From positions 248,001-312,000 of the forward strand of contig JAKSGN010000007.1 of assembly GCA_024180945.1 (NCBI GenBank): a stretch of DNA of 64,000 nt, in the 5' to 3' direction. The translations under genes were made by a program, and so were the position numbers. The notes beneath the pieces are model-generated. The model had not been told where the DNA came from and ran no database searches. It was given only the letters and a program-made list of their open reading frames with translations. The DNA comes from Macrophomina tecta. Taxonomy: Eukaryota; Ascomycota; Dothideomycetes; Botryosphaeriales; Botryosphaeriaceae. Positions 52,430 to 64,000 of the stretch are shown in pieces. The first letter of the stretch is position 1, and the number at the start of each line of letters is the position of its first letter.

Positions 52430-54088
52430 CGTCACGGGACGGCTTTGGTCCGCGGGATGCGTGTCGGGGATTCCTTTGTCGTTTTGGGAAGCTTTGGGCG
52501 GCAAAACGAAATGTCCGGCGGAAATCTGGCCTGTTCTGCCGACAGTGGCTTCTTTCCACAAGATGAGAGAAGAGCGTAGTGAGGTAAACTGCAACAGGCG
52601 TCCCAGTCCGCCTGGCCGTATATATAATCAGCTGCCAAGAGCGCGCCGTATTCAATCTGGCAAGATAAGGCAGCTAAGGGTCAAGGGCTTCTATGCGAAT
52701 AAGGCCAGAGTGATTCCAGACTTCCGCGATAGGTGCTGCACGGTTTCACAATACGACAGGCGAGGCGGGAGTTGCCGACTTTACTCGCGTAGCTGCTCTC
52801 TTGGAGAAGGGTGAGCGGACATTGGGTTGCCCAAGGCGCATAAGATCGTCTGGAGAATGAGTCTCTGTAGCGAGCAGTCTTGGCCCGAGCGGTTTTGGAA
52901 GCTATAGTGTGCATTAGAAAGCTAAGAATCTTCTCGTCCGGACCATGGATTCCGCTGACGCGCCGAAAATACATCGCCTACATAATTCTTCTGACCTCTC
53001 CTTTCGCGCCATTCACAAACATGGTAACTCTACAAAAAAAATTGAAGAAAAAGCGGCCAACTTGAGCTATACCTCAATAGCGGAGTGAAATGCACATGAT
53101 ATTCTGAAGGCATTTCCTCTGCTTACCGCAACCAGACAATTGGGTGCTTAGGTTATTGAATACCCGAGAGCACATCTGGGCCGTCCTACTTGCCCCGTTT
53201 GTCCAATTCGGACTTGTTGAAGGACGATGAACCGCACGTAGTACTTTCCCGGAATAGAAGACCTAGTTGGGCTTAGTTCCACCTCTGAAGTGCACATAGT
53301 CTCTGCTGATTGCTAGCGCCCTAGAGGGATAATCCATTATGATTTCAACATGACTGGTCATTTCCAACTCTGCATCCCCTCCATCTCCAAGATAGTGTCC
53401 ACGGCCGGAAGGATCGTAAACAGAAGGCGCAAAGTAAACGCCTGGAGTTACGCAGTCATACTGTTGGACAGAAAAAAGCACGACGCCGCACTTAGATTCA
53501 GTGCGAATTGATTGATTTATGTTCCAACACATACAAATGTGAATGTCCTTTAACGCTTTCCGGGCCCCTTTGTGTGGGGCTGAATGCATCAGTGATACAT
53601 GCATTTCTACACTGCTTTTAACACGGTCTCAACTTATAGACAATCATTTGACGAAGGCTTTGCCTTGGGGCAAGGCGACGACTTCCCAAAATCCTAGTTG
53701 CATTATAAGGAATCCTTCCCGAAGTTGCGCAATACTCAACAGAAGAGAAATTTGTCGCAAATTTCTCCCTACAACGCTAGTTTAGAAAGCTAGAGATTCT
53801 ATAGAGAACTCAATCTACAATTTTAATCTACAGATAATACATTCTAAGACTCAAATCTGGAATTTATCTAATCAATGACTGAATTACGCATGGAAACTAC
53901 AAAGAGCAATAAGCCAATCAAAACAACAACCATCTCCATACTAATTTAAGCATGGGGAGGGGGAAAAAGAGGGACAATATTACCTTAAACACAGTGCCAT
54001 GAACAAACAAAACAGTCGAAATATCTTCTCATCGACCCCTTCAAAACCTCCTTCCACCGAGCCTAAACCGGAACTGCCGGCTCCTCAC
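52430..54088. other. Intergenic region left of the hAT pair
   Basis: Turns AT-rich after about 53,760. A minus ORF at 53263-53604 (ending DYPSRALAISRDYVHFRGG) looks protein-like but is unassigned. No transposon ends apart from the hAT boundary at 54089. Confidence 0.4.
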
Positions 54089-56813
54089 CAGACATCCCAA
54101 TAATAAATAAATACATAATATTGACATATTCTTATGTATTCATTGGCAGATCCTAATATTATTATCGATTGCTAAGCTTATCAATAATTATTAATATAAA
54201 ACTGAAGCGCCATGCATGTCGTCGTTGCCGCCAGCAATATCCATGACCTTACCATCTACTGCCACGTAGACTTTGCGGACCAAGTCATTCTTCACCCAGT
54301 TGCTCAGGCATTGAAGCTTCTCGATAGTATCAGGCGAGAGCCGTGCCCTGTCCCAAGAAATTGTCCGCCTTGCGCAAGAGAATACCCGTTCCGGATCGTC
54401 GGACATCGCCGGCACACTTAGTATGTCAATGGCCAATTGGTGTAAACGTGGATACTCAATCCTCTGTTCTTCTCGACACCACCATTCAAGCGGTGTTTTG
54501 GTCGTCATAGGTCTTGGCGGAGAATTGACGAATTTTTCGAATTCATCCTCATCTCCGGGTTCATCCAAGACACTCATTGACTGCTTGATACGCTCGTACG
54601 GTGTTACTTCCCGTCGTTCGTCGTTCAGCCGAGCCGCGGACTCCGACGGGAGTGGCCGGTCCTTGTACTTCGCCCAATGCTGCCGTGCACCAGCAATAGC
54701 GGTCTGCCTCCATTCCTCTGCCCAGTGGCGGTCAAGGTACCTCCGGCGCTTTTCTGGATGGAGCAATAATGCCGTGGCATATATTGGGTTTCTGTCACTC
54801 TCTTCATAATACTTCGAGAGAACCCACCAACCCATGTGAATGGAATGAACCATACGCGCGTTGCTGGCGTATTTGCCCTGCTTTAACATCAGTCCAGGTC
54901 TGGTAATCGATCGAGCCGTCCATGGCTTACCTTGGCATTCTCAAACTGCATGAAAAGAATATCCATATTCTCTAGCACCTGATCTATTGATGCCCACTCC
55001 ATTTGCTGCTCCAAGGTCGCTTGGTAAAACGGCTGCAAGAACTCGTGTGTCATTTTGAGTACTTGCCAATCATCATGTGTGAGGATGTCGTCTTCCAGCT
55101 CGTTGTGGTATTGGTTGAGGAATATTGACAATGGACCCTCTTGGCTGATAGCCGCATCAAGCAACTTGAACCATGAGTTCCAACGGGTGATATTGTCAAT
55201 TCCAAGCGCCTTTTCTGCAATGTCATCCCATGCATCGTTGCGCACTGTGGAATTACGGATGAACACCGCAATGTTGTGGAGTTTACCCATTGGGCCGATG
55301 CTCCGCCAGCCGGCAGTGTCATGGCGTTTCTTGCGCCTGTCGTGACTCTTGTGACAAGTGTTCGACTGAATTTGGTCGTGTAACGCGTCCGCAACTGTTA
55401 CATCATTTACCTCGTGTTGCGCCTGCGCAATTGCGGCCTGCAGAGCGTCCTCACTAGTTGCAAAGAGAAAGGCTTGAAGGGACAAGTTAATGATGTGGCC
55501 GGCACACCGCGTTCGAGAGGACACTGGGTCAAGTGTAAGGCCGTACTCTTGCGACAGCTCAACAGCAAGTTGGCGGAGACAGGTGTCATTCTTTGCGTCA
55601 TTGTCCCCAGTGAAGTAGCCGATTCGGGGCGCTAAGTGGTACTGTCGGATAATCGTCATCAAGTGAGGTGCCATAGCCGTGCCGGCGTGAGAGCGGCGGA
55701 GGTTTGGTAGCCCTAGCAATGCTTTCCGAGGTTTGTAGGCCTCGTCAACCCATTGGGCGTGAACAGCGATATAGGCCTTCCGCTGAGGAGAAGACCATAC
55801 GTCCATAGCAATGTGTACGAGGCTCCGGGCACGTTCTAGCCATTCCTTTACGGATTGTTGATGCGCATCGTAGGCCCTATCCAAGTCCGCCGCAACTGTG
55901 CTACCGGAATCAGTTAGGAACTCTTCAACGGCAGGGTTTATCGCGGCCAGAAGTGCCTGGTATTCCGGCCAGGTTACGAAGTTGAGCGGTAAATGTTTAT
56001 GTGCGGATAGCAACATCTGTGCCTCTCGAAAGGCATCGACATTGATTACACTCCGTAGAGTGTTCATCTCATTCTCCCTGACTTGCTGCAGCCGCTTGCC
56101 GGTTGTCCTTGCGAAGGCATTTTCGATGGCTAGTTGGCGCCTGTTTTGAGATTTTGAATCCTCTCGAACAAGTATGTGATGAGCCTTCTCGAGATGATAG
56201 CGGGCGTTGCCAGATATGTGGGTTGACCAGGATGGGTTGCGACAACGCGTGCAGTAGTGAAGTAATTTCCCGCTCATAGTACGTGGCTCGTCGCCTTGAG
56301 CTTCTCGAAAGTGATCCCATGTTGATGTGGCTCTCAGTTTCCGTCTCTTGACCGTATGCTGAGCTGACGATGCCTCGGGTTCTGACAGTGTGCTGGCAAC
56401 TTGTGTGGCACTGTCAGAGGGTACCACGGAGGAAGAACTTGACGGGGCATTGGATTGGGGCAGTGAGGATATGTTGACGTCCATTGTCGTGTGTAGAGAT
56501 ATGTCGCTGATGTATTACGAACTGCGTACTTGCAACGTGACGGGTATGGCGAGGCAGCAGTTTCGGTTGCTAGGAGTTACAAACATTGGAGTTCACCTCC
56601 TATCTAGAGGCCTGATAAGCAGTAATATGCGTACAAGACTGCAATTTAATCTGAAACACTCTGGGGGAATTGGCGCTGGAAAATAGTGGGCCTATATTAT
56701 TAATAGTTAACAATATATATTTATTGGCAGCGTCTATATTATTATCCTTATGGAAAAGCTTAACAATAAATATGCCCTTAATAATAAATATATATTTATT
56801 ACTGGGATGTCTG
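54089..56813 (-). mobile_element. hAT transposon, copy A (transposase apparently intact)
   Basis: 2725 bp bounded by imperfect terminal inverted repeats beginning CAGACATCCC(A/G)TAATAAAT at both ends (54089 onward, and inverse up to 56813). The transposase reads leftward. Sub-terminal DNA is very AT-rich. Its 8-bp flanks do not match each other (CTCCTCAC on the left, GCCGCCAC on the right); the right flank is the inverse of the flank at the 3' end of copy B (61259-61266). This indicates rearrangement after insertion. Confidence 0.93.
54191..56484 (-). CDS. hAT transposase, full length
   Basis: Exons 54931-56484 and 54191-54880, joined by a 50-bp intron (GTAAGC donor), give 747 aa. A BED-type zinc finger (TSTWDHFREAQGDEPRTM; LHYCTRCRNPSW; ARYHLEKAH) is followed by the RNase-H-like catalytic region (HIAMDVWSSPQRKAYIAVHA; GYFTGDNDAKND; RCAGHIINLSLQAFLF) and the hAT C-terminal dimerisation domain (PRLHQLAIDILSVPAMSD; ERVFSCARRTISWDRARLSP). 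The only intact copy in the window. It may still be able to move itself and copy B. Confidence 0.92.
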
Positions 56814-56821
56814 GCCGCCAC
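56814..56821 (-). repeat. hAT target-site duplication, half 1
   Basis: GCCGCCAC on the plus strand, i.e. GTGGCGGC in the reading direction of the 2OG N-terminal piece. Exact match to 61259-61266 in inverse orientation. Confidence 0.85.
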
Positions 56822-57064
56822 TCTCGGCGTTGGAAAAGGCGGCCGCACTGTTGATAGCGGCGTTGCGGCACTGCTAACCTCCGTCGCTGACAAGCTCTGG
56901 TGGCGTGTGGCTGGCGTTTTGAAACTGCGGCTGGTGACCAGTGACAATGAATTGAAGGCGGTAATTGGCCTCGCAACATGCAGCGGCGACGTGGTGGATG
57001 AGGACGCTGCATACTTGAGCGCCACTCTTTGCAGAAGCTTCCATTTGTGTTGGAGTCGTTGCAT
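56814..57064 (-). pseudogene. Detached 5' coding part of 2OG-Fe(II) oxygenase gene
   Basis: An ATG at 57064 opens 83 codons plus two bases, up to the hAT border. The peptide is Arg/Ser-rich with few acids (MQRLQHKWKLLQRVALKYAA; ITAFNSLSLVTSRSF), a likely mitochondrial presequence. It ends in PFPTPRVAA. The last eight bases are the target duplication; continuing from 61267 keeps the frame and yields VAATGTGTAPPP, the start of the oxygenase region. The open frame runs on into the element for 71 codons. A 16-base T tract lies directly before the start. So the 5' exon and promoter of the oxygenase were inverted away from the rest. Confidence 0.75.
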
Positions 57065-57659
57065 TTTTTTTTTTTTTTTCTTGCTTCGGCCCAGTAATAG
57101 AGGGTGTGCTTGAACGGATACGGCAGAACGTAGGGAGATAAGAGGTTTTCGGCAGGTAATTGTGCATTACTGCGTGAACTCCTCAAATACTGTTTTGTCA
57201 ACAATGGTGGCGCTGACCCGTAACTTGGCGGTGTTTGACGGGTCCGGGCCCGAGGAAAGGGGCGAAGGTCCCGATGGTCCATTGTGGCGTTTATAGGATC
57301 GCGACCAACCCACGGGCGTGTTGTTGCTTGCTGCGGTCCCACTATCTTTCAGCTGCGCCGCCCGTCAGCGCCAAAAGAGCCCCTCGTCTACTCAGAATAT
57401 CCACTCGAGGACTATTGTTGGAAAACTCTATGCACCTTTAGGTCACAACTATGTCTGTGCTTAGGCAACGGTTAACTCCGTTGGCGGCCGGCGCATCCTG
57501 TGGAGCGGCTGAGCATGCGGCCATGTTGAACCATTTAATATATAGCAATAAATGAGCTCTATATCACCCTGCTGTGGTTTGAGGCATAAAAGCGCCTGAG
57601 ATCTGCTCGCAGCTGCATAAGTTTCACGAACTCCGAACGCAAAGCGACCAGAAGACACG
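57065..57659. promoter_or_regulatory. Divergent promoter between the detached 2OG 5' exon and the truncated nuclear-protein gene
   Basis: 595 bp between two outward-facing starts. The T tract at 57064-57079 abuts the leftward start. After the inferred inversion is undone, this block lies directly upstream of the oxygenase gene. Confidence 0.5.
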
Positions 57660-58751
57660 ATGTCCGAAGCGGCACTTCCGATCATTCCTTCTACCTCTGT
57701 AGATGCAAAATGCTCTGATCAGGTATTTTCTCTTCCTAACAACTCCTTGGCATCCAGAAGGGCAGAACTTTAATCACTGACCCAGCTTTCTAGAGTACTT
57801 TGCACGAATCATACTCATCCCCGCAGGGCTTATCGACAATACGTGACCTGAAAACTTCCAACACTTCTCCTCCACGCAAGAGAAGTTACTTTGAATCAAG
57901 CGACGAAGACAGCGAGGCTACTATATCACCGCAGCAGCTGAGAGAAAATGATAAGGAGTACGAAGATGGTAGGCTTGCCGTTGAAACATATGAGGACCTT
58001 GCTTACACAGCATGTGGCAGAGTTCTGGAGCCCGCGATCAACAAAGCGCATCCGTACCCCTACTTATCCGGAATGCATACCGGCGGAAAGGCTGGGAAGC
58101 TCCCAGCTGTGGCCATCGATGTTCGATTCCGCGCCCAACGACACGGGAATGGGAGGGGTATCCGACGATTGGTTGTTTAGTTGGAACACGCAACAAGAAG
58201 CTGCCGCACTGCCAACACCTGCGTTCTCATCGACACCGCCCACCTTGTCGTCGTCCTTGACACCCTCCGTCTTCGGCTCGCCACTCACGCCATGCGGTGA
58301 CAAGGACGCTGAGCCCCAGTTGAACTTTGACTTTTTCGGCTTTGGTGATCAGAGCATTTGCGCTTCCGATTTCAACGCCACCCCCTCATTACCTGATCAG
58401 GGCGTATCACCGCCAAAGGTGCGGACTCGCGACATGTTCAGCGAGGTCCTGGAGACGGTGAATGCCCGATCGGCCGTAGCCATAACAGAAGCGTCCGCTT
58501 CCATCGCACAACTCCCGCCCTCACCATCACCAGATCTCAGACATCCCAGTAATAAATATATATTTATTATTAAGGGCATATTTATTGTTAAGCTTTTCCA
58601 TAAGGATAATAATATAGACGCTGCCAATAAATATATATTGTTAACTATTAATAATATAGGCCCACTATTTTCCAGCGCCAATTCCCCCAGAGTGTTTCAG
58701 ATTAAATTGCAGTCTTGTACGCATATTACTGCTTATCAGGCCTCTAGATAG
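57660..58751 (+). CDS. Truncated disordered nuclear-type protein, fused to hAT end
   Basis: Exons 57660-57722, 57827-57968 and 58021-58751 keep frame and give 311 aa, but native sequence ends at 58537 where hAT copy B begins; the last 71 residues are transposon-coded. The native part is Ser/Pro/acid-rich with basic patches (PPRKRSYFESSDEDSE; WSPRSTKRIRTP) and short hydrophobic/acidic motifs (LNFDFFGFGDQSI; SDDWLFSWNTQQ) like activation segments of fungal regulators. No DNA-binding domain is visible. The real C-terminus is missing or displaced. Splice sites GTATTT and GTAGGC are weak, so exon joins are less certain. Confidence 0.55.
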
Positions 58752-61258
58752 GAGGTGAACTCCAATGTTTGTAACTCCTAGCAACCGAAACTGCTGCCTC
58801 GCCATACCCGTCACGTTGCAAGTACGCAGTTCGTAATACATCAGCGACATATCTCTACACACGACAATGGACGTCAACATATCCTCACTGCCCCAATCCA
58901 ATGCCCCGTCAAGTTCTTCCTCCGTGGTACCCTCTGACAGTGCCTCACAAGTTGCCAGCACACTGTCAGAACCCGAAGCATCGTCAGCTCAGCATACGGT
59001 CAAGAGACGGAAACTGAGAGCCACATCAACATGGGATCACTTTCGAGAAGCTCAAGGCGACGAGCCACGTACTATGAGCGGGAAATTACTTCACTACTGC
59101 ACGCGTTGTCGCAATCCATCCTGGTCAACCCACATATCTGGCAACGCCCGCTATCATCTCGAGAAGGCTCATCACATACTTGTTCGAGAGGATTCAAAAT
59201 CTCAAAACAGGCGCCAACTAGCCATCGAAAATGCCTTCGCAAGAACAACCGGCAAGCGGCTGCAGCAAGTCAGGGAGAATGAGATGAACACTCTACAGAG
59301 TGTAATCAATGTCGATGCCTTTCGAGAGGCACAGATGTTGCTATCCGCACATAAACATTTACCGCTCAACTTCGTAACCTGGCCGGAATACCAGGCACTT
59401 CTGGCCGCGATAAACCCTGCCGTTGAAGAGTTCCTAACTGATTCCGGTAGCACAGTTGCGGCGGACTTGGATAGGGCCTACGATGCGCATCAACAATCCG
59501 TAAAGGAATGGCTAGAACGTGCCCGGAGCCTCGTACACATTGCTATGGACGTATGGTCTTCTCCTCAGCGGAAGGCCTATATCGCTGTTCACGCCCAATG
59601 GGTTGACGAGGCCTACAAACCTCGGAAAGCATTGCTAGGGCTACCAAACCTCCGCCGCTCTCACGCCGGCACGGCTATGGCACCTCACTTGATGACGATT
59701 ATCCGACAGTACCACTTAGCGCCCCGAATCGGCTACTTCACTGGGGACAATGACGCAAAGAATGACACCTGTCTCCGCCAACTTGCTGTTGAGCTGTCGC
59801 AAGAGTACGGCCTTACACTTGACCCAGTGTCCTCTCGAACGCGGTGTGCCGGCCCATCGTGCTTGTCCTTCAAAGCCCTTTCTCTTTGCAACTAATGAGG
59901 ACGCTCTGCAGGCCAATTGCGCAGGCGCAACACGAGGTAAATGATGTAACAGTTGCGGACGCGTTACACGACCAAATTCAGTCGAACACTTGTCACAAGA
60001 GTCACGACAGGCGCAAGAAACGCCATGACACTGCCGGCTGGCGGAGCATCTGCCCAATGGGTAAACTCCACAACATTGCGGTGTTCATCCGTAATTCCAC
60101 AGTGCGCAACGATGCATGGGATGACATTGCAGAAAAGGCGCTTGGAATTGACAATATCACCCGTTGGAACTCATGGTTCAAGTTGCTTGATGCGGCTATC
60201 AGCCAAGAGGGTCCATTGTCAATATTCCTCAACCAATACCACAACGAGCTGGAAGACGACATCCTCACACATGATGATTGGCAAGTACTCAAAATGACTC
60301 ACGAGTTCTTGCAGCCGTTTTACCAAGCGACCTTGGAGCAGCAAATGGAGTGGGCATCAATAGATCAGGTGCTAGAGAATATGGATATTCTTTTCATGCA
60401 GTTTGAGAATGCCAAGGTAAGCCATGGACGGCTCGATCGATTACCAGACCTGGACTGATGTTAAAGCAGGGCAAATACGCCAGCAACGCGCGTATGGTTC
60501 ATTCCATTCACATGGGTTGGTGGGTTCTCTCGAAGTATTATGAAGAGAGTGACAGAAACCCAATATATGCCACGGCATTATTGCTCCATCCAGAAAATCG
60601 CCGGAGGTACCTTGACCGCCACTGGGCAGAGGAATGGAGGCAGACCGCTATTGCTGGTGCACGGCAGCATTGGGCGAAGTACAAGGACCGGCCACTCCCG
60701 TCGGAGTCCGCGGCTCGGCTGAACGACGAACGACGGGAAGTAACACCGTACGAGCGTATCAAGCAGTCAATGAGTGTCTTGGATGAACCCGGAGATGAGG
60801 ATGAATTCGAAAAATTCGTCAATTCTCCGCCAAGACCTATGACGACCAAAACACCGCTTGAATGGTGGTGTCGAGAAGAACAGAGGATTGAGTATCCACG
60901 TTTACACCAATTGGCCATTGACATACTAAGTGTGCCGGCGATGTCCGACGATCCGGAACGGGTATTCTCTTGCGCAAGGCGGACAATTTCTTGGGACAGG
61001 GCACGGCTCTCGCCTGATACTATCGAGAAGCTTCAATGCCTGAGCAACTGGGTGAAGAATGACTTGGTCCGCAAAGTCTACGTGGCAGTAGATGGTAAGG
61101 TCATGGATATTGCTGGCGGCAACGACGACATGCATGGCGCTTCAGTTTTATATTAATAATTATTGATAAGCTTAGCAATCGATAATAATATTAGGATCTG
61201 CCAATGAATACATAAGAATATGTCAATATTATGTATTTATTTATTATTGGGATGTCTG
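58538..61258 (+). mobile_element. hAT transposon, copy B (broken)
   Basis: 2721 bp, inverted relative to copy A and nearly identical to it, with the same CAGACATCCC termini. The left flank is CCAGATCT and the right flank GTGGCGGC. The right flank matches the flank at the 5' end of copy A in inverse, not its own left flank. Confidence 0.93.
58867..61156 (+). pseudogene. hAT transposase of copy B, frameshifted
   Basis: Same start and exon layout as copy A (58867-60416 and 60467-61156), but exon 1 is 1550 nt instead of 1554. The differences cluster in a short patch at about 59853-59930, just after RTRCAG, where several small indels destroy the HIINLSLQAF motif and cause a stop at 59895. Elsewhere only scattered substitutions are seen (for example T to S in DSATQV, K to N in HPEKRR). 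It cannot make a full transposase by itself. Confidence 0.92.
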
Positions 61259-62422
61259 GTGGCGGCGACGGGCACGGGCACGGCACCGCCTCCCTTCACG
61301 ATACCAACCGTGGACATCGCGCCCTACCTCTCGGATCCTTCCTCACCCGCCGCGCAGCGAGTGGTCGAGCAGATCAATCAGGCTTGCCGGTCGACGGGCT
61401 TCTTCCAGATCGTCAACCACGGGGTGCCGGCGGCGTTGCAGGACGAGGTGTTCCGGGCGGCGCAGCGCTTCTTCCGGCTGCCGCTCGAGGAGAAGAAGAA
61501 GCTGGACGCGAAGACCACCATCGGCCACCGGGGCTACGATGTTTTGGAAAGTCAGTCGTACGAAGAGGGCGTGCTGCCAGACCTGAAGGAGGTAAGTGAG
61601 AAGAAAGTCCCTTGACATCATTACTCCGACCAAAACAAGAACGAACGGGGGAAAAGAAGCATGAACACCACCAACACAAAACCACCACAGGGCTTCTACG
61701 TCGGCAACGACGTCCCCGCCACCGATCCGCGCGCGCAGGCCGGCCGCTTCTTCATGGGCCCCAACGTGTGGCCCGCGTCGCTCGAAGCGCACGAGCTCCA
61801 GCAGCCCGCGGAAGCGTACTTCGCGGCCGTGTACGCGCTCTCGCTGCGCGTGCTGGACATGATCGCGGCGTCGCTGCCGTACGACGTGCGGGCCACGTTC
61901 GCGCGCTTCACGCAGCCAGCGGAGCTCGTGGCCGCGCCGCTGCGCCTGCTGCACTACCCGCCGGCGCGCCCGCACGCCCACCGCGGCCAACAGCGCCAGC
62001 TCGGCGCGTCGGCGCACACCGACTTCGGCGCCATCACGCTGCTCATGCAGGACGGCAATCCGGGGCTGCAGGTGCTGGACCGGCACGGCGCCGCGCGCTG
62101 GGTCGACGTGCCGTCGACCCGCCGCGCGTACGTCGTCAACGTCGGCGACATGCTGGAGCGCTGGACCCGCGGCTACTACCGCTCCAGCGTGCACCGCGTG
62201 GTCAATCCGCTGCCCCGCGACCGGTACAGCGTCGTCTTCTTCTTCGACGGCAATCTCGACTGCCCGCTCGTGCCGTTGGGTCCGCCGGACGAGGGCGGCG
62301 CCGAGGCGGCGGCGGCGGTGGCGGGCAGTGGGAACGCGGAGGAGCGGGAGGACGTCCTGACTGTGGAGAAGCACATGATTGAGAGGATGACGGCGTCGTA
62401 CGGGAAGGGCGGCAAGAAGTAA
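61220..62422 (+). CDS. 2OG-Fe(II) dioxygenase, 5' end replaced by hAT terminus
   Basis: Exons 61220-61591 and 61691-62422 give 367 aa. Native sequence begins at 61259. The DIOX_N region (FTIPTVDIAPYLSDP; GFFQIVNHGVPAALQDEVFR) is followed by the jelly-roll core with iron ligands HTDFGAITLLMQD (H and D) and SSVHRV (distal His), and 2-oxoglutarate binding by R and S of DRYSVVFFF. It resembles isopenicillin-N-synthase/gibberellin-oxidase-type enzymes. The ATG at 61220 and first 13 codons lie inside the transposon and give a hydrophobic leader (MSILCIYLLLGCLVAA). The original start lies at 57064 on the other strand. If not transcribed from the element, this is a decapitated gene. Confidence 0.85.
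61259..61266 (+). repeat. hAT target-site duplication, half 2
   Basis: GTGGCGGC immediately after the right end of copy B; inverse match to 56814-56821. Confidence 0.85.
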
Positions 62423-63056: not shown

Positions 63057-64000
63057 TCAGACATTTGTCGATTCCCTCCGTTTTATAAGAACTTTGAGAC
63101 CGGTCTGGTTCACAAACCACCGGTTCTCAACCTTCCAATGACGGTTCGAGGGGTCGGCCCATTGGAACTATAGAGCACATTTCCGAGTGTCAGAGGCAAA
63201 AGGCTGCGAAAGCCACGGAGAACAGCCTCAGGACAGGCACTTACCGTGAAAGTCTGCAAAAGACTCGGGATGAGTTTGTACACTTCGAGGTGCGCAATGT
63301 TCTTGCCTAAGCAAACGCGGTGTCCAGCACCAAACTGGCGGAATCAGTCAGCGGCGGGGCGCAGACCCAATGCGCTTTCTTCACCGGCAAAAACTCACAG
63401 TCAGCAATGCGTTCTCCATTGTGCGTCTTTTCTCTGCGCTGATTCCAATCCAGCGCTCGGGCTTCCAGTCGTTGCAATCGTGCCCGAAGGTGTCGGGGTC
63501 ACGGTGTACGACCCACGCACTCATTCCTACAACAGTGCCCGGCGGAAGGGCCTGGCCACACACGGTGGCTCCCGACGCGGGCACCACTCGCTCGAGCGGG
63601 AGGCCAAAGGGCGGGTGCAATCGCCCGGCCTCCTTGATCACGGCATCCAAGTAAGGAAGTTCGCGGGCCTCTCGCCATGTGGCTGGGTTGGAGAGACGGC
63701 CGGATGCCGCTGCATGGTCGAGTTCAGCAAGGAGACGGCTCATAGATTCCGGGTTGGCCAGCAGGGAATGGAAGACTGTGCGCAAGAGTATGGCAGTGGT
63801 ATCGGATCCTGCAGCCACATTTGACGTTGTCCACACGGTCAGAGCGAACGGAGGTATCGAAGAATCGTTTCGGATGGCGGCCATGAAGCGGGCCAGAAAG
63901 TCGTTCTCATTGACTTTAGCCGTCTGATCTGCGGCTTCGCTCTTCTGTCGCTCCCGGACCCGGGCCACGGCAAAGCTTACAACAGGATTGGCACGGACGG
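63057..64000 (-). pseudogene. Cytochrome P450, 3' part (runs off window), one-base insertion in heme exon
   Basis: Exons 63399-64000 (open at the right edge), 63245-63335 and 63057-63167. Conserved parts: I-helix AAGSDTT, K-helix KEAGR (ExxR), DWKPERWIG, and FGAGHRVCLGK with the heme Cys. The C-terminus reads FQWADPSNRHWKVENRWFV. Overall type resembles pisatin-demethylase-like fungal P450s. The heme exon is 91 nt where 90 would keep frame: an extra T in the run 63300-63302 (A on the coding strand) shifts reading after CLGK, and dropping it gives NIAHLEVYKLIPSLLQTF and a correct join to the last exon. Either a real lesion or an assembly error. Confidence 0.85.

Follow-up and report, generated by a model that had tools for sequence, protein, structure and literature searches.

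We analyzed a 64,000-nucleotide stretch of the genome of the fungus Macrophomina tecta (the window, positions 248001–312000 of contig C7 in an assembly of 54.1 Mb and 37 contigs), in which an oxygenase gene is divided between the borders of two inverted copies of a hAT transposon, here called A and B. The octamers that flank these two copies were followed through the assembly, together with those of the other copies of the family. Positions without a contig name are those of the window.

Copies A and B and the genes that they divide

Copy A spans 54089–56813 on the minus strand (2725 bp), with its left end, where the transposase starts, at 56813 and its right end at 54089, and copy B spans 58538–61258 on the plus strand (2721 bp; left end 58538, right end 61258). 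The left ends of these near-identical elements face each other across 1724 bp, and the two copies, in opposite orientation, bound a 1.7-kb segment that, judged by 287 of its bases, occurs only once in the genome. The arm search gave the two inverted arms (1317 and 1348 nt) as 100% complementary, but five and three single bases, respectively, differ on direct comparison. The terminal inverted repeats are short, CAGACATCCCA being present at both ends of A and of B with imperfect matching beyond it, and the hAT dimerisation domain PF05699 (E value 1.5e-15) lies within 54191–54940 in copy A.

An alignment of A with B has 20 differing columns, 12 of which (six substitutions and six indels) fall in a patch of B at 59854–59913 on the plus strand. 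The patch occupies columns 1319–1382 of 2727, the midpoint of the element, and disrupts the transposase frame of B. It is common to none of 61 other aligned copies, and B is the sole copy among the 62 aligned full-length ones with such a dense private cluster of substitutions and indels. A search for a second source found a 30-base piece of the patch only once in the genome (at up to two mismatches). The patch looks like uncorrected long-read errors, or else like a tract of error-prone repair.

The target-site duplication of the family is 8 bp long, as in the hAT superfamily, and neither A nor B has one of its own. Read in element orientation, the left and right flanks are GTGGCGGC and GTGAGGAG for A, and CCAGATCT and GTGGCGGC for B. 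The left flank of A lies at 56814–56821 on the minus strand (it reads GCCGCCAC on the plus strand) and the right flank of B at 61259–61266 on the plus strand, each directly abutting its element (at 56813 and 61258), exactly where the original prediction, made from the window alone, had placed the shared octamer. Since GTGGCGGC is frequent in the window (11 occurrences, counting both strands), the weight of the match rests on its placement at two element ends. The remaining two octamers also have partners on the correct kind of element end, as do all four flanks of A and B. The right flank of A (54081–54088, minus strand), GTGAGGAG, is the left flank of a copy at C6:99391–102115, and the left flank of B (58530–58537, plus strand), CCAGATCT, is the right flank of a copy at C7:509320–512044.

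The 5′ part of the oxygenase gene lies at 56822–57064 on the minus strand, with its ATG at 57064, and encodes a basic N-terminus rich in serine and threonine (7 R, 4 K, 1 E and no D among 83 residues), the composition of which suggests that it is possibly an organelle-targeting sequence. The body is found on the plus strand beyond the right flank of B, with a first part at 61267–61591 that carries the DIOX_N domain and is followed by a splice donor, GTAAGT (boundary set by eye), and a second exon at 61691–62422 that carries the 2OG-FeII_Oxy domain and ends with the stop at 62420–62422. Joined as 57064–56814 on the minus strand and then 61267 onward, the frame reads MQRLQHKWKLLQR...TPRVAATGTGTAPPPFTIPTVDIAPYL and leads into DIOX_N (E value 4.6e-27) and, after the intron, 2OG-FeII_Oxy (E value 9.4e-24), which bears out the earlier claim that the two parts form one frame. 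The nearest solved structures to the body are the oxygenases SpoC, TraH and TropC (E values 1e-36 to 2e-33).

The right end of B (61220–61266) itself provides an ATG, at 61220, in frame with the oxygenase body (MSILCIYLLLGCLVAATGTG...), and a chimeric protein with a hydrophobic start encoded by the hAT element could still be produced from this junction. Beside the oxygenase gene there is also a cytochrome P450 gene fragment (63384–63998, minus strand; PF00067, E value 1.6e-29).

The segment between A and B holds, in addition, the 5′ part of a second, divergent gene of unknown family (57661–58537, plus strand; start set by eye), the two longest frames of which have no Pfam match. This gene is cut at 58537 and continues in frame at C7:512045, where its 3′ end lies and where 83 whole codons lead to a stop.

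The original prediction had explained the locus by one inversion between A and B. When 56814–58537 is flipped back, a perfect 8-bp duplication is indeed regained and the oxygenase frame becomes continuous, and an exchange between A and B, to which GTGGCGGC points, is kept in our account. However, the other element is then left with CCAGATCT and GTGAGGAG, which mismatch each other, whereas each matches a third copy (those at C7:509320–512044 and C6:99391–102115). The inversion is incomplete as an explanation, and a single flip of A and B with nothing else we regard as barely credible. Leftover flanks with partners elsewhere, and a second gene that is also split, require at least one further exchange.

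By flank pairing, A and B belong to a chain of five copies across C6, C7 and C27. The left flank of the copy at C6:99391 pairs with the right flank of A through GTGAGGAG, the left flank of A with the right flank of B through GTGGCGGC, the left flank of B through CCAGATCT with the right flank of the copy at C7:509320, 203 kb further on C7, and the left flank of that copy through CCCATCAG with the right flank of the copy at C27:385084. With these links undone, one arrangement combines C7:512045 onward, the 1.7-kb segment reversed, C7:309259–509319 and C27 from 385083 downward; the other joins C7:302088 downward with C6:102116 onward.

Open reading frames across such joins are of limited use. The join of B with C7:512045, measured separately, is open over 183 codons, and the frame that is open through the C6 flank passes the right-flank octamer of A, with a stop about 13 codons later, which is weak evidence. 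Frames were open over at least 150 codons in four of the 10 swapped joins whose flanks were long enough, in 14 of 41 intact sites and in 5 of 23 mismatched sites left unaltered. Of 4021 joins made at random between hAT flanks, 26% reach this length as well, for which reason we rejected frame continuity as proof of former joining and count it as slight support.

Target-site duplications across the hAT family

The family consists of about 107 near-identical copies (107 right ends counted; with two mismatches allowed, the search for left ends gave 212 places, presumably with right ends among them, and at least 100 exact left ends). Flanks were read for 105 copies, 99 of them with both ends. Perfect 8-bp duplications are found at 62 of these 99, and 37 are without one. 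For 30 of the 37 mismatched copies, the missing octamer borders another mismatched copy, at an end of the other kind; this pairing is present in the assembly. Grouped by hand from the flank pairing, the mismatched copies form five reciprocal two-copy swaps (C1/C6, C3/C3, C5/C5, C6/C7 and C13/C31), one three-cycle on C30 and five open chains comprising 17 copies. The duplications are fully exchanged, for instance, in the pairs C3:3115434/3145054 and C5:2735715/2780610. Mismatched copies are not closer to contig ends (medians of 549 kb versus 580 kb, p 0.84, for 97 of the 99 copies). All six hAT copies read in C7:1–512044 are mismatched, compared with one of seven read in the remainder of that contig.

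Chance matches between octamers are rare. As a decoy, the 3782 left–right cross-pairs among the 62 intact copies gave two matches, both from one duplicated locus (C10 and C36), and pairs of intact with mismatched copies also gave two, which represent a copia repeat on C31 and C25. Copies that are mismatched or one-ended contribute 38 left and 42 right flanks, and these gave 26 left–right matches, no left–left match, two right–right matches (the duplicated loci C16/C20 and C25/C31) and no match in reverse complement.

A second kind of evidence comes from a copia element (long terminal repeat, LTR, of 228 bp; 5104 bp from LTR to LTR) that adjoins some of the hAT ends. In 30 flank combinations a copia LTR lies on each side. 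Five of them bring the copia back to a length of 5112–5115 bp, and in every one of the five the octamers match: they are two intact nested hAT copies, the C31/C25 repeat, and the swaps C6:591472/C7:2122920 and C20:42031/C20:232435. A further octamer-matched combination, C31:2121186 with C31:2268376, gives a copia length of 5062. The restoration of copia length in octamer-matched pairs argues that such pairs mark former neighbours. The hAT element occupies the same site in seemingly several copies of one copia (C31:2121186, C31:2268376 and C25:1–2720), as if the retrotransposon had carried it along.

The linked pairs are also close to each other more often than expected. Eight of 21 distinct pairs lie on one contig (random expectation 1.2, p 2e-5) and four lie within 100 kb (expectation 0.21, p 4e-5), all four of them inverted. 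In a stricter shuffle of the 26 links, the observed 10 on the same contig compare with 2.5 expected and the six within 100 kb with 0.6; neither value was reached in any of 20000 shuffles. The genome has 26 pairs of copies within 100 kb. Four of the 15 inverted pairs are directly exchanged, versus none of the 11 direct ones.

Recombination, misassembly or transposition

We consider it probable, at roughly 0.6, that homologous recombination between dispersed copies of a recently spread hAT family exchanged their flanks. This reading takes the assembly to be correct, and both the mechanism and the order of events we infer. The family would have spread recently through the genome to its present number of near-identical copies, and recombination between copies would then have swapped flanks: exchange within a nearby inverted pair would invert the intervening DNA, exchange between copies on different contigs would give a reciprocal translocation, and exchange between direct copies probably a deletion. 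Such a deletion would leave a lone mismatched copy, and may account for some of those that have no partner. Breaks made by the transposase may have been the trigger. At the present locus, the ancestral state would have been two elements 1.7 kb apart with their left ends facing, one in the oxygenase gene (duplication GTGGCGGC) and the other inside the divergent neighbour gene (duplication CCAGATCT). Recombination between the two would have flipped the 1.7-kb segment that holds the 5′ parts of both genes, and further exchanges with the copies now at C7:509320, C27:385084 and C6:99391 would have removed the 3′ part of the neighbour gene and brought in the present right flank of A.

Whether one recent burst of this hAT family has shuffled the karyotype of a single strain, through at least 19 exchanges (seven within the closed sets and 12 as open-chain links), is to our minds an even question. 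If it did, the order before the shuffle would be largely readable without a relative, with 5′ and 3′ parts of genes now far apart or on different contigs.

Several observations weigh against recombination as the source of the pairing. Seven of the 37 mismatched copies have no partner among the mismatched copies, although one of the seven, C31:2268376, matches the hAT nested in the copia repeat. The five-copy chain ends in ATACGCCG and GTCGAACA, and a search for hAT ends bordered by the partner of either, which would miss a flank lying bare at a contig end, found none. Excision scars of a lost chain member were sought with 1–7 free bases between the outer parts, and the patterns ATACGCCG–GTCGAACA and TATGAAAG–GAGTCAAC gave eight and five places, compared with 12 and four for reversed-pattern controls; a scar joining the lost flanks was thus not found above control in the genome, and the closest form, on C3, was dismissed as indistinguishable from chance. 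In the alignment of 62 full-length copies, which left out two copies with insertions (L056 and L061), one at a contig end (L058) and those with only their ends fetched, private substitutions number 19 in 21 mismatched copies (without B) versus 12 in 40 others, which fits either older copies or a poorer consensus. Altogether, 61 of these 62 copies are within six columns of the consensus over 2725 bp, and the differences are too few to inform on chimerism of A and B by shared substitutions.

Other points on the same side concern the assembly itself. The contigs C16 (aligned), C35 (read), and C24 and C25 (by right-end coordinate) begin at or in the hAT element. Three sampled points of C16, which is 12.9 kb long, agree with C20:275427–285642: 50 bases next to the element, 14 bases halfway along, and the far end, the last with an offset of 2 bases. 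C16 may represent a true duplication, a second haplotype or the remnant of an alternative join. The four contig starts and this agreement indicate that the assembler met trouble at the hAT family. The patch in the exact centre of B, with its likeness to uncorrected read errors, belongs here as well. Finally, the 188-kb segment C20:44756–232434, between two direct hAT copies, has CTCTTGCT at both ends, and its ends jointly restore a split copia. It is unobtainable by exchanges from a linear ancestor without another internal junction, and might be circularly permuted, be a circle that became integrated, or contain a further junction.

An assembly fault is accordingly the alternative that deserves most attention, and we hold it to be possible but clearly the less probable. 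Every copy would truly have its own duplication, and reads joined at the wrong one of about 107 copies of a 2.7-kb repeat would produce the same exchange of flanks. Besides the noisy patch in B, the four contig starts and the three sampled points at which C16 matches C20, the share of affected copies, 37 of 99, is very high. A search for (TTAGGG)4, which may pass over simple repeats, found none and so gave no indication that telomeres had been assembled. On the other hand, blind misjoining does not predict the bias of partners toward the same contig and toward nearby inverted copies. Also against a fault, the 5.3-kb copia repeats, which are longer than the hAT element, are mostly intact: among 10 of the 11 recognised full-length copies (99.8–100% identical over the compared stretches only), the 5-bp duplication is perfect in seven and has one mismatch in another. 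The two copies without matching duplications speak in favor of a fault. No N occurs within the window or the 143 loci examined, contigs reach 5.1 Mb, and the segment C20:44756–232434 would have to be a circle in the true genome unless it has another misjoin inside.

Transposition of a hybrid element with reversed ends offers a further route, one we consider very unlikely. The left end of A and the right end of B would have moved as one transposon into the oxygenase gene, creating GTGGCGGC anew. Such events are known for hAT elements, and at maize Ac/fAc inversions two different elements carry matching copies of an 8-bp duplication at their ends (PMC8225341). The segment C20:44756–232434, with one octamer at both ends between direct copies, would have the expected form. 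The original inner flanks, however, should then be joined or lost. Because GTGAGGAG and CCAGATCT still adjoin the correct hAT ends elsewhere, this route is disfavoured for A and B; reciprocal closed swaps also occur, no joined-flank scar stood out, and none of the five places given by the scar search falls in the C20 segment, where an inner scar was predicted.

If homologous recombination between hAT copies is the correct explanation, the assembly records, at unusual density and to the exact base, how one young transposon family shuffled chromosomes through both local inversions and translocations, and it becomes possible to measure how often such exchanges occur and how they depend on distance. 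If it is not, the 8-bp ledger is a cheap misjoin test for long-read assemblies rich in young transposons.

Comparison with known systems

No title among the best-matching open-licence literature of PubMed Central reports a fungus in which swapped hAT duplications were charted across the whole genome. In yeast, breaks at dispersed Ty1 transposons are repaired by non-allelic recombination, giving deletions, duplications and translocations (PMC9879454), although there the breaks are induced by Cas9 and the element is a retrotransposon. That fungal genomes can undergo many repeat-mediated rearrangements in a short time is already known. Two strains of Verticillium dahliae that are 0.024% apart differ by 13 translocations and six inversions, and 8 of the 12 rearrangements reconstructed in detail overlie similar transposable elements (PMC4971763). 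The present case resembles it as a fungus with many rearrangements in a short time. The Verticillium rearrangements, however, involve various repeat families and come from a long-read comparison of strains, whereas here one hAT family is concerned and its target duplications are the sole record.

As with A and B, the maize Ac/fAc elements belong to the hAT group, and at an inversion the ends of two of them have an 8-bp duplication in common. Reversed-ends transposition creates its duplication anew and loses the DNA that lay between the elements (PMC8225341), in contrast to the present locus, where the other flanks survive beside other copies. The recombination proposed here resembles that at Galileo of Drosophila buzzatii, for which two copies in opposite orientation with exchanged target-site duplications were read as the result of ectopic recombination (PMC2775673), and exchanged duplications as proof of a transposon-mediated inversion are established from that work. 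Galileo concerned one inversion, with the uninverted chromosome as a control and chimeric copies shown (PMC2775673). The Macrophomina case, known from one assembly and with no uninverted control, concerns a fungal hAT element and a denser set of exchanges, with many swaps in one genome.

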